In this document: piece after piece, positions 50,762 through 55,201 of the stretch
How positions within the stretch are numbered: the first letter of the stretch is position 1
How the letters are laid out: each line of letters opens with the position of its first letter
Notes under the pieces: generated by a model
Seen by the model: the letters and a program-made list of their open reading frames with translations, nothing else
Told to the model about the DNA's origin: nothing
Database searches by the model: none
Assembly (NCBI RefSeq): GCF_009911265.1
Contig: NZ_QXXA01000015.1
Span: 1-64,000 of the forward strand
DNA: 64,000 bases
Reading direction: 5' to 3'
Source: Senegalia massiliensis
GTDB lineage: Bacteria > Bacillota > Clostridia > Tissierellales > SIT17
Made by a program: the position numbers and the translations under genes

Positions 50762-51355
50762 TATCTATTTGAAAATCTTTTTTACTTAAGGACCAAATAT
50801 AATGAGCTATTTGTAAATAACTTACTATATGTTATAATTTTCAATATAGATAAGGGGCTAAGGCTACTTAGTAATAGTCAAAATAAAATTTGATTTATAC
50901 GCTACTTCATGCTTTTTAGCAGTCTAGAAGACAGATGGCTTGTTAACTTTACTATTTTTAAATTTGCTTGATTCTTTTACAGAAGGATCAAACTAAGATA
51001 TGCAAAAAAATGTTTATGATTTTTAAATACTAAAAAATCATAAATCTCGCATATTAGTGTAACAGTAGAAATAAAACCGACGCCTTTTGATTGTATCAAT
51101 TAAATGTATCTGCTTAATAAATTCACAATCTTCATATGTTAAAGTGAAGCTTTTGGTATTAGCTAACATAGAGTTTATTATATGCAGCGCTAGCACCAAC
51201 ATAAGAGTATCCATTTTAACAGTGAGCACACAACCTAGCATATGACTGAGGTATACCGAAAACTGATCCCAACCAGCCAACTCATAAATTCTTCACTGAA
51301 TAAAAGAAAAGATGTAAATTTGTATTACAAATATATTGTACTAGGAGGTGGTAAT
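50762..51355. other. Gene-poor stretch with remnants and a hairpin
   Basis: About 590 bases with no supportable gene. A structured palindromic stretch lies at 50998-51054 (TTTATGATTTTT with AAAAATCATAAA, flanked by TATGC and GCATA). From there to about 51300 the base composition rises and a minus-strand frame of 80 codons (51280-51038) is open, but it lacks a ribosome site and similarity that could be recognised. Probably debris of an insertion next to the transferred tetR. Confidence 0.45.
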
Positions 51356-51925
51356 TTGGCACAGCAATATACCAGAAAAATGATTCGCGATGTATTCATC
51401 AAGATGCTTAATGAGCGTTCACTTAATAAAATCACAGTTAAGGATATTGTTAGAGCATGTGGGGTCAATAGAAATACTTTTTATTATTATTACACAGATG
51501 TATATGCAATTCTGTCAGAAATCTTCCAAACAGAACTTCAGGCAGCTATTGATGAATATAATGATACACTCTCTTGGGAAGAGGGCTTTCTTGTGGCTAC
51601 TAAGTTTGCTTCAGAAAATAGAAAGGCAATTTATCATGTATATGATTCCATGCAGAGAGAAGAATTAGAGAACTATATATACAATGTATCAGGAACTGTC
51701 ATGATCCGATATGTTGAAAAAGTAAGCGATGGTATCTCAGCCTCTTCGGGAGACAAAAAACTGATTGCTTCCTTTTATCAGTGTGCCCTCACTGAAATGG
51801 TACTACGCTGGATTGCTTCCAGAATGAAGGAAGACCCTGATACTATCATCAGACGAATCGGGCAGCTTTTTGATGGCAATATTGCCCTATCCCTTAAGAG
51901 AAGTGCTAGTTTAAATGATGTCTGA
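51356..51925 (+). CDS. TetR/AcrR-family regulator, probable controller of oleate hydratase
   Basis: 189 residues from TTG 51356, five bases after AGGAGGTG at 51343-51350; the longer frame back to 51242 starts inside unconnected sequence. TetR helix-turn-helix: LNKITVKDIVRACGVNRNTF, then YYYYTDVYAILSEIF. The C-terminal domain ends in the pattern CALTEMVLRWIASRMKEDPD. Codon use is visibly different from neighbours (more CGC, GGC, CTG), suggesting recent acquisition. It is followed by a terminator, a perfect 57-nt palindrome and oleate hydratase, which may be its target. Confidence 0.9.
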   Translation: MAQQYTRKMIRDVFIKMLNERSLNKITVKDIVRACGVNRNTFYYYYTDVYAILSEIFQTELQAAIDEYNDTLSWEEGFLVATKFASENRKAIYHVYDSMQREELENYIYNVSGTVMIRYVEKVSDGISASSGDKKLIASFYQCALTEMVLRWIASRMKEDPDTIIRRIGQLFDGNIALSLKRSASLNDV

Positions 51926-51965
51926 TAAAAAAGGAATCTTCTATTGCTTTTTTATCAGACATTTT
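51919..51965 (+). terminator. Terminator after tetR
   Basis: TGTCTGATAAAAAAG (starting before the tetR stop codon) pairs over 15 bp with CTTTTTTATCAGACA, 13-nt loop, then TTTT. Confidence 0.85.
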
Positions 51966-51993
51966 AATCTTAATTCCTAAAAATTGACAAAAG

Positions 51994-52050
51994 ATTAGAC
52001 AAATTAACTGTGGTGTTCGAAATTCGAACACCACAGTTAATTTGTCTAAT
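51994..52050. repeat. Perfect 57-nt palindrome (28-bp arms, 1-nt centre)
   Basis: Arms run 51994-52021 and 52023-52050 with a single A at 52022. The core GTGGTGTTCGAA is much richer in G+C than surroundings. TTGACA at 51984-51989 lies just before it. It could be a second terminator, an operator for the adjacent TetR protein, or the scar of a mobile element. No matching T-run follows, so plain termination is less likely. Confidence 0.8.
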
Positions 52051-52128
52051 GAAAAAGAAATAAAAAAGCGATATTATAAGTTTAAATAAATATTACAAAC
52101 TTAAAGGAGGGTTTATTGCATTATTATG

Positions 52129-52157
52129 TTGACACACTAATAGAGTGAATATAGAAA
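52129..52157 (+). promoter_or_regulatory. Candidate promoter of oleate hydratase
   Basis: Perfect TTGACA at 52129-52134, 17-nt spacer, TAGAAA at 52152-52157. A TATAAT-like box also occurs a little later (about 52166-52171), so the exact start is open. Confidence 0.5.
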
Positions 52158-52219
52158 AACTCTAAATATAATAGTTGGATTTAGAAGACTGTAAAAAATT
52201 AAGAAAGAGGGAGATAGTA

Positions 52220-54013
52220 ATGGAATTAAAAACACATGATGATAGACTTACTCTTACAAATGGAAGTTATCATGCTTTAGTAAATGCAAGAAAGCCTAAA
52301 GGAATTAAAGATAAAAAAGCTTATTTAATCGGTACAGGAATTGGAGCTTTAGCTGCTGGTTGTTTTTTAATTCGTGATGCTCACATGGATGGCAGCAAGA
52401 TTACCTTCTTAGAGCAATTAGACATTCCTGGTGGATCTTTGGACGGAGAGGTTCGTCAAAATATGGATTATGTAGCACGTGGAGGACGTGAAATGGGTCA
52501 CCATTTTGAGGTTTTATGGAGCTTATTTAGTTCATTACCATCTACAGAAGATCCTAATATGACTATTTTAGATCATTTTTATTATACAAACTACGATGAT
52601 CCAAACTTTAGCAATTGTCGTATTACTAAAAACAAAGGTGAGCGTTACGACAATGGAAAATTTAATTTGGGTCAAGACTTGGCAAAAGAATTAGCTGCTT
52701 TTGTAAATATAACAGATGAAGAACTTGAAGATAAATCTATTGAAGATGTTTTTTCAGAAGAACTTTTAAATACTGATTTCTGGACATATTGGAGAACAAT
52801 GTTTGCTTTTGAAAATTGGCATAGTGCTTTAGAGATGAAATTATATATGAATCGTTTCATTCACCATGTTGGGGGATTACCAACTCTTTCAGCTTTACAA
52901 TTTTCACGACATGATCAATTCACTTCATTTGTAAAACCTATGGTTAAATATTTAGAGGACCATGGTGCTAAATTTGAATATGGAGTTAATGTTGACAATG
53001 TTGAGTTCTCAATCTCAGATGATAAAAAGGTTGCAAAGAGAATAGTTGCAACAGATAAAGTTGGAAAGAATATCTCTATTGATTTAACAGAAAATGACTT
53101 AGTATTTATTACTAATGGTTCTATGACTGAAGGTTCGGGATATGGTGATGACAATACGTCTGCACCATTTAATAAAGAGCCAGAAGGATGCTGGAAGCTA
53201 TGGAGAAACATAGCAGCTCAATCAGATGAATTTGGAAGACCAGATAAATTCTGTACAGATACAGAAAAATCTAATTGGGAGTCTTGTACAGTAACTTGTC
53301 ATGATGAACGTGTTCCTGAGTACATTGAAAAGATCACAAAACGCTCACCATATGGAGGGCACACTGTAACAGGTGGAATAGTTACAGCTCTCGACTCTTC
53401 ATGGCTAATGAGCTGGACAATAAACCGTCAAGAACAGTATTATGGACAACCAGAAAAAGACGTTGTTGTTTGGGTATATGGTTTGTTCTCTGATGTTCCT
53501 GGAGATTATATTAAAAAACCTATGAGAGATTGTACTGGTAAGGAAATCACAAAAGAATGGTTATATCATATAGGTGTTCCTACAGATAATATTGAAGAAT
53601 TAGCAAAATCATGTAGTGCAGTTCCTGTTATGATGCCATTTATCACGTCTCAATTTATGCCTCGTGCAGCTGGAGATCGCCCATATGTTGTACCAAAGAA
53701 TTCAGTGAACTTTGCTTTCCTTGGACAATTTGCTGAAACATTGGATGATCCAGGACGTGATACTGTATTTACTATTGAATATTCAGGACGTACAGCTATG
53801 GAAGCAGTATATGTTTTAACTGGAGTTGAAAAAGGAGTTCCAGAGGTATTTGCTTCTAGATATGATATCCGATATTTGTTAAATGCAGGTGTAAGCTTGT
53901 TGGATGGAGAAAAACCAGAACTTGATCTACCACCAATGGCTAAACGTAAGATTTTAAAACAAGTAGCAGGAACAGATATTGAAAAGTTATTAAAAGAATA
54001 TGGAATTATTTAA
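52220..54013 (+). CDS. ohyA: Oleate hydratase (MCRA-family, FAD-dependent)
   Basis: Adds water to the cis-9 double bond of unsaturated fatty acids such as oleate or linoleate to make 10-hydroxy fatty acids, usually a detoxification step. About 597 residues, the full family length. ATG 52220 follows GAGGGAGA; the in-frame upstream extension lacks a site. Rossmann FAD motif LIGTGIGALAAGCFLIRDA near residue 36, FLEQLDIPGGSLDG, the MGHHFEVLWSL segment and the ending FLGQFAETLDDPGRDTVF with EYSGRTAMEAVY are characteristic. Intact, between a TetR regulator and a pseudogene. Confidence 0.97.
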   Translation: MELKTHDDRLTLTNGSYHALVNARKPKGIKDKKAYLIGTGIGALAAGCFLIRDAHMDGSKITFLEQLDIPGGSLDGEVRQNMDYVARGGREMGHHFEVLWSLFSSLPSTEDPNMTILDHFYYTNYDDPNFSNCRITKNKGERYDNGKFNLGQDLAKELAAFVNITDEELEDKSIEDVFSEELLNTDFWTYWRTMFAFENWHSALEMKLYMNRFIHHVGGLPTLSALQFSRHDQFTSFVKPMVKYLEDHGAKFEYGVNVDNVEFSISDDKKVAKRIVATDKVGKNISIDLTENDLVFITNGSMTEGSGYGDDNTSAPFNKEPEGCWKLWRNIAAQSDEFGRPDKFCTDTEKSNWESCTVTCHDERVPEYIEKITKRSPYGGHTVTGGIVTALDSSWLMSWTINRQEQYYGQPEKDVVVWVYGLFSDVPGDYIKKPMRDCTGKEITKEWLYHIGVPTDNIEELAKSCSAVPVMMPFITSQFMPRAAGDRPYVVPKNSVNFAFLGQFAETLDDPGRDTVFTIEYSGRTAMEAVYVLTGVEKGVPEVFASRYDIRYLLNAGVSLLDGEKPELDLPPMAKRKILKQVAGTDIEKLLKEYGII

Positions 54014-54033
54014 AGGTATGAGCATTAGATAAT

Positions 54034-54795
54034 TTGATTAAAATCCCGAATTTAGAAAATTGGGATTTTAATTTATATGTAGATATTATTCATACTATAG
54101 AAGAAATGCAAAGTTGGTATGAAGATGATTTGCGCAAAGAATCCTTAAAATCATCGGAATATGAGAATAATAAAAAAATTGAAGAACAAAAATTGTTTTT
54201 TAAAGCTTTTCGAAAACTTTAAAAGAGGGATGAAATTCCTGTAGATTCTAAGAAAAAGAATGTTTATTATGAAAAATATAAAGATTATGTAAAAGAAGAA
54301 ACAGAAAACAAGGGCAAAAAGATACAAGAAATTGAAAAGTCAATTGAATATGAAAAGTTTTTTCTTCGTTGGGAAAGAAGTGTCAATAGGGAGAGAAATA
54401 ATTATAGTCATTATGGCAGTAATTCAGCTACAAGATATCGGGTTGATTGTATAAAAAATTTAGAGAAAGATTTAGAGTCAATTTTAGAAAATTCTCCAGA
54501 AGCATGAGAATTTTATTATAAACGTCAATTAATAAGCGATATAGAAACCGAACACAAACAGCATTTGATAACTGTCCCTTATGTAGTTAAAGCAAAACAA
54601 AAGGTAATAGATTCATTGAATTTAGGTGTTCCTGTATATATTGTAGGACATTTAGGAAGTGGAAAAATACAGCTATCAACTGAAGCAGCTTTGGATTTTA
54701 CTATTCAAAAATTTGGAGAATTTAATGAAGAAAGGAAACTTTACTATAAAAATATTTTAACTAATGGAAGGAAAAAGGAAATAGAGTCTTTATAG
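54034..54795 (+). pseudogene. Degraded P-loop (AAA-type) ATPase gene
   Basis: One continuous frame is interrupted by TAA at 54220-54222 and TGA at 54505-54507, yet the translation stays sensible across both stops: a charged helical N-terminal part (LENWDFNLYVDIIHTIEE), a long coiled segment, then a P-loop in VYIVGHLGSGKIQLSTEAA where the usual Thr after Lys is now Ile. It ends at TAG/TAA-rich sequence near 54795 without the rest of the AAA domain. Two stops, a damaged Walker A and missing C-terminus show a dead gene. Confidence 0.8.
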
Positions 54796-54926
54796 CTACT
54801 ATTTATATCTGGATCTCATAATTTAACTTAACAAAATCTTTATACTATTCTTAACAGTCTTAATCCTATTTTTATATGAATCTTGATAAAATGAAATTAT
54901 AAAATATATAAGAAGGGATGGTGTAT

Positions 54927-55016
54927 ATGAATTTTATTCAAGTTATTTCTTTAATAACTACAATTGCTTTGCTAATATACTTATTCTTTGTACTGATTAA
55001 GGGGGAAGAACTATGA
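54927..55016 (+). CDS. kdpF: KdpF-like peptide of the potassium-transporting ATPase
   Basis: 29-residue frame MNFIQVISLITTIALLIYLF, then FVLIKGEEL, one membrane helix, with RBS AGAAGGGA before the ATG. Its TGA overlaps the ATG of a kdpA-like frame (ATGA at 55013-55016), the arrangement seen in kdpFABC operons where KdpF stabilises the complex. Because kdpA downstream is only a stub, this gene is probably a non-functional remnant despite being open. Confidence 0.72.
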   Translation: MNFIQVISLITTIALLIYLFFVLIKGEEL

Positions 55017-55201
55017 TTAATATTGTTACTCAAATTTTACTGTACTTGATTGTCTTAGTTATGCTTGGGAAATCATTAGATAAGTACATGGCAAAGGTTT
55101 ATGAAGGAGATAAGGTTTTCTTAAGTCCAGTATTAAATCCCATAGAAAAGCTCATATATAAAATAATTGGAACAAATAATTACAGATTATTTTTTTTATG
55201 A
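55013..55201 (+). pseudogene. kdpA: Truncated kdpA (potassium-transporting ATPase A subunit)
   Basis: The 62-residue product matches the KdpA start: ITQILLYLIVLVMLGKSLDK, then YMAKVYEGDKVF, SPVLNPIEKLIYKIIG, a pattern of first helix, then the conserved Lys-Tyr-Met/Ile-Ala and PxExxxY segment. Full KdpA has about 550 residues; here the frame ends after about 62 in LFFL and the feo promoter region begins, so nearly the whole gene and kdpB, kdpC are missing. Confidence 0.78.

Follow-up and report, generated by a model that had tools for sequence, protein, structure and literature searches.

A 57-nt palindrome between tetR and ohyA of Senegalia massiliensis as a probable TetR operator nested in a transcription terminator

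Here we ask why two co-directional genes of Senegalia massiliensis, tetR (51356-51925) and the oleate hydratase gene ohyA (52223-54013), are separated by a perfect palindrome of 57 nt. The stretch of DNA analysed (64,000 nt, hereafter the window) contains at 51994-52050, just as a preliminary description of the locus had reported, two 28-nt arms (51994-52021 and 52023-52050) that are 100% complementary around a one-base centre. No perfect palindrome in the window is longer, and ten dinucleotide-preserving shuffles of the window gave maximum arms of 10-11 bp as against the 28 bp observed. A search of the 3.1-Mb genome for the 57-mer, which had been proposed as a check, returned one copy only; no second copy of the 19-bp core was found in the genome with up to 3 mismatches allowed, and an Rfam scan gave sub-threshold matches to generic hairpins, none above the gathering score. 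From the self-complementarity of the element, a terminator score and sequence comparison between loci (of the operator core, stem covariation, strand bias, promoter spacing and transfer of the module), we consider it probable that the palindrome is a composite element, namely a TetR operator nested in the terminator of tetR and lying just upstream of the ohyA promoter.

The tetR gene starts with TTG on the + strand and encodes a protein with the recognition helix VNRNTFYYYY, which scores above the curated cutoffs for both TetR_N (PF00440; 29.9 vs 24 bits) and TetR_C_8 (PF14278; 81.5 vs 26.1 bits) and thus belongs to the TetR_C_8 subgroup of the TetR family. It is not a member of the DhaS equivalog TIGR02366 (82.1 bits vs a cutoff of 129); the proteins nearest to its structural model (pLDDT 89), by sequence as well as by fold, are the Listeria DhaK regulator 4mk6 and DhaS (2iu5). 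OhyA, an MCRA family protein (PF06100) also encoded on the + strand, scores 859 bits against a cutoff of 567 for the oleate hydratase equivalog NF010584, with residues 11-595, its full length, aligned. The atypical codon use previously attributed to tetR is borne out by a mean log codon probability of -1.39 vs about -0.7, and GC3 is 33% in tetR, 19% in ohyA and 9-17% in the neighbours.

Both genes had been regarded as a transferred module, and the suggested comparison of borders in related strains agrees with this: the flanking beta-lactamase-like and feoA/feoB genes lie ∼100 bp apart in three sister genomes of the same genus, as against 4.4 kb in the window, where an acquired segment (50769-55176) with 90% DNA identity to Clostridium frigidicarnis is found between the class A beta-lactamase-like gene and feoA. 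The three sister genomes contain no ohyA closer than 56% identity, and the module has relatives with 85-90% DNA identity in Clostridium, Metaclostridioides, Fusibacter and others. The left junction of the segment cuts the terminator hairpin 3′ of the beta-lactamase-like gene; at its right edge (55013-55198) we observed a truncated kdpA (PF03814), of which about the first 50 residues remain, preceded by a kdpF-like small ORF. Downstream of ohyA, a decayed and truncated AAA ATPase gene (54087-54830, + strand) shares 74-92% DNA identity with a gene of several relatives, and in many relatives an intact AAA ATPase gene (about 705 aa) follows ohyA. The ohyA copies in plasmid and phage collections are all <60% identical, so that no transfer vehicle was identified. 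Upstream of tetR, the DNA at 50808-50863 (+ strand) matches at 79-89% (blastn) a promoter-like region with a TATAAT-type -10 that lies directly 5′ of tetR in several relatives; in the window ∼450 bp of unrelated single-copy DNA (50864-51316), absent in relatives, separates this region from tetR, and this DNA may change tetR expression. That the tetR-ohyA module was itself transferred fits the earlier suggestion that the palindrome is a mobile-element scar or a dispersed repeat; it is, however, present as a single copy in the genome and keeps its position in dozens of species, which leaves such an origin scarcely credible.

To place the element in a wider context we fetched 80 ohyA loci; in 59 of them a TetR gene with the same orientation lies a short distance upstream, and a palindrome screen was passed by 39 of the 59 Firmicutes tandems. 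On visual inspection, several of the 20 that failed nevertheless have an operator or terminator; neither was seen by eye in the Peptoniphilus/Anaerococcus group among them. A set of 47 loci (19 close and 28 distant, one non-ohyA locus included), which are related to each other and hence are not to be counted as independent events, was aligned on the palindrome centre and has a common layout at fixed spacing, with an operator core at ±1-9, a stem at ±10-18, outer half-sites at ±19-27 and a -10 element from +50. As judged from this comparison, the palindrome is a control element that has been conserved in the tetR-ohyA tandems of Firmicutes.

The centre of the palindrome looks like the site of a TetR protein. 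Operators of this type are dyads of 15-30 bp with conserved half-sites near a target promoter; here the dyad is a 17-bp core (TGTTCGAAATTCGAACA, 52014-52030) with position-specific conservation, in which TG/CA at ±7,8 is nearly invariant among the 47 centre-aligned loci and which keeps a fixed spacing to the -10. Outer half-sites lie beyond the stem on either side, TTAGACAAA on the left (51995-52003) and TTTGTCTAA on the right (52041-52049), and across loci they take the form TTAGACAAA/TTTGTCTAA or TTTACAAA/TTTGTAAA. The class of recognition helix tracks both the core and the outer half-sites: NRNTFYYYY pairs with centres TGTTCGAA or TGYCTRAA, and RM[TAS]FYYHF with TGATAAA and similar centres, a correlation with few independent changes because it mostly coincides with a deep division within the family. 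When 391 genomes of the class were searched with the 19-mer core it was identified in three, these being the window's own genome, another tetR-ohyA locus, and a genome (G372; locus L127, 463-2124) in which the identical core is flanked by a related tetR and a patatin-like phospholipase gene. The outer half-sites of L127 keep the same distance, though the intervening stem is only partly complementary, and the occurrence of the core at a patatin gene suggests lipid-linked TetR regulation beyond ohyA. At a locus with lysR in place of tetR (L021) the stem is still perfect and the centre is without symmetry, a single case that separates the constraints on stem and centre in the expected direction.

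The fixed 17-bp core, its covariation with the recognition helix and its recurrence at a gene other than ohyA, next to a related tetR, argue for an operator, as had been supposed from the window alone. The accompanying idea of a double operator holds in part, in that extra half-sites are present at fixed spacing; these are probably also read by TetR. At 51972-52001 there is in addition the remnant of a second operator-like site, which many close relatives show as TGCCTAAAAATTAGRCA and which, according to the alignment, has been altered here by an 11-bp insertion. A third full operator over the ohyA -35 was rejected, its right half not being conserved, as was autoregulation of tetR via a like site, since the region 5′ of tetR in relatives lacks a matching palindrome. 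Elsewhere in the genome, a second TetR gene (locus L009, contig C3, 1474-2049), whose product is 26% identical to the window TetR, is followed by a perfect 42-bp palindrome (about 2090-2131) with paired changes in a sister genome (L008); this is possibly the same architecture.

It could be argued that the element is an operator and nothing else, that is, a long repressor site for several TetR dimers, placed at the centre and the outer half-sites with the right one occluding the -35, in which stem pairing is a by-product. Such a site would account for the fixed half-site spacing, the tracking of the recognition helix and the outer half-site adjoining the -35, and TetR proteins do mostly repress. 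The stem between core and outer half-sites (52004-52012, pairing with 52032-52040; + strand) is where this account falls short, as it lacks a conserved sequence yet is complementary. At ±10-18, 95% of pairs are complementary in close and 77% in distant relatives, vs 33% across loci, and 195 of 252 pairs are Watson-Crick in the distant loci, vs a mean of 87 and a maximum of 117 when arms were swapped between loci (2000 shuffles), with the caveat that these pairing figures are inflated by the choice of the 47 loci by palindrome score. The 28 distant loci carry 27 different stem sequences. Stem mismatches over all loci comprise 25 G-U on the + strand vs 7 A-C (one-sided p 0.001, ignoring relatedness), an asymmetry that a + strand RNA hairpin should produce. 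Close relatives have 6 GU and 15 AC in the outer region, and as the GU bias is absent there the outer positions look constrained as DNA. Choosing loci by palindrome should leave the GU/AC bias, the strand bias of the U-tract and the -10 spacing unaffected. An operator needs neither complementarity without conserved sequence, nor an excess of GU over AC, nor a U-tract mainly on the + strand, and we consider a purely protein-binding site unlikely.

A mutational artefact was also considered, in which template switching (quasipalindrome correction) would maintain identical arms in the absence of selection. Arms free of mismatches, and paired changes between close relatives, are what this process would leave behind; however, GU intermediates are enriched, unrelated stems occupy the same place in distant loci and the -10 spacing is fixed, all of which makes it very improbable. 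The cruciform switch that had been offered as a further possibility was abandoned, as we found no signal for it beyond the palindrome itself, and both the GU-over-AC bias and the U-tract on the plus strand speak for a terminator hairpin in the RNA instead.

Using a simplified d'Aubenton-Carafa-type terminator score, we obtained positive values for 20/28 distant loci on the + strand and 3/28 on the - strand (Wilcoxon p 6.6e-7). The window itself scores weakly, with similar values for the two strands (+6 on +, +8 on -), and the U-tract is clear in most distant relatives. Folded as RNA, the palindrome gives a predicted hairpin of -41.5 kcal/mol (z -13.4), with the stability expected of an intrinsic terminator, and the stem together with its U-rich right flank looks like an intrinsic terminator of the plus strand. 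The preliminary remark that the repeat is not followed by T is correct provided that the stem is taken to include all of the 28-bp arm; it fails otherwise, since T residues abound in the outer right arm TTAATTTGTCT, which would also serve as the (weak) U-tract of the + strand terminator, and in most relatives this arm is a clear T-tract (TTTATTTATCT, TTTTTTTGTCT). An AT-rich hairpin over the tetR stop codon (51918-51962, + strand), of which relatives have only part, is a possible additional weak terminator.

Seven further perfect palindromes in the window (10717, 26388, 28492, 33944, 44432, 57536, 62655) lie between convergent genes and are probably bidirectional terminators, and the palindrome at 51994-52050 might by the same token be nothing more than a bidirectional intrinsic terminator that happens to have unusually perfect arms and has no connection with TetR. 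It shares with this class a GC stem flanked by A-rich sequence on the left and U-rich sequence on the right. In contrast to such terminators, it lies between co-directional genes and bears at its tip a conserved TetR-type operator of 17 bp that tracks the TetR helix; the same core moreover recurs at another tetR, and we regard a terminator without a role for TetR as quite improbable.

The predicted ohyA promoter (+ strand) consists of a weak -35 (ATGAAA, 52049-52054), starting at +27 from the palindrome centre where TTG/ATG is favoured across loci, and a good -10 (TATTAT, 52072-52077), with transcription predicted to start at ∼52084. The -10 starts exactly at +50 from the centre in 38/47 loci (19/19 close and 19/28 distant), a spacing that is kept across Firmicutes. 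A TTGACA at 51984 was dropped as the -35, lying within the 11-bp insertion unique to the window, as was a short leader ORF near 52113 (TTG start after AGGAGG) that the alignment of relatives does not keep. Because the outer half-sites end at the ohyA -35, the operator centre is placed ∼62 bp upstream of the predicted start, with the right outer half-site ∼40 bp upstream, and these are positions typical of activators. On the composite reading, activation of ohyA by TetR, in analogy to DhaS, is weakly favoured over repression, given a site upstream of the -35, the pairing of a weak -35 with a good -10, the DhaS-like fold and the lack of a palindrome 5′ of tetR in relatives. On the side of repression, the right outer half-site touches the ohyA -35 and most TetR proteins are repressors.

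DhaS of the Lactococcus lactis dhaKLM operon, named an operon activator in the title of PDB entry 2iu5, and the Listeria DhaK regulator 4mk6 are likewise TetR proteins and the nearest solved structures. Unlike DhaS, the window TetR falls below the DhaS family cutoff, its putative target is an oleate hydratase and its candidate operator is embedded in a terminator hairpin. We take the half-sites of DhaS to be ATTTGTCC, which resemble the outer arms ATTTGTCT of the palindrome. Passages of a study on vaginal lactobacilli report that oleic acid induces ohyA and a TetR gene; that tetR neighbours farE, not ohyA, and these passages describe no operator (PMC11429459). Induction of ohyA by oleic acid in lactobacilli makes fatty-acid sensing by the TetR protein plausible here by analogy. 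Staphylococcus aureus likewise has an oleate hydratase for which a TetR-type fatty-acid regulator, FarR, has been considered; FarR, however, is not encoded near ohyA and its stimulus has no robust effect on ohyA, and control by SrrAB is reported (PMC11669549). A literature search covering few subscription journals returned no description of a TetR operator for ohyA or of such an architecture.

Taken as a mechanism, we infer that the adjacent TetR regulator would bind its operator at the palindrome centre (52014-52030), which would also form the tip of a hairpin; the GC-rich stem of this hairpin, together with the U-rich flank on its right, would act as the intrinsic terminator of the tetR transcript. 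Transcription of tetR would end at this hairpin, thereby insulating ohyA from read-through, and TetR on the same DNA would control the ohyA promoter, the signal being an unsaturated fatty acid or a derivative. Occupancy by TetR might further be coupled to termination, with tip-bound TetR acting as a roadblock to enforce termination of tetR and, from its fixed position, also activating the promoter that follows, an extension that we consider doubtful; if true, a single DNA element would allow the regulator to feed back both on the 3′ end of its own gene and on ohyA.

Oleate hydratase, whose substrates are unsaturated fatty acids, is found widely among gut bacteria, and in the literature searched little is described of ohyA control outside staphylococci and lactobacilli. 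The locus provides a concrete candidate regulator-operator pair for ohyA in anaerobic Firmicutes. It would also illustrate clearly, by comparison between loci, how a single palindrome can combine the roles of protein-binding site, RNA terminator and promoter-positioned control site, with constraints on sequence and on pairing that are separable position by position.
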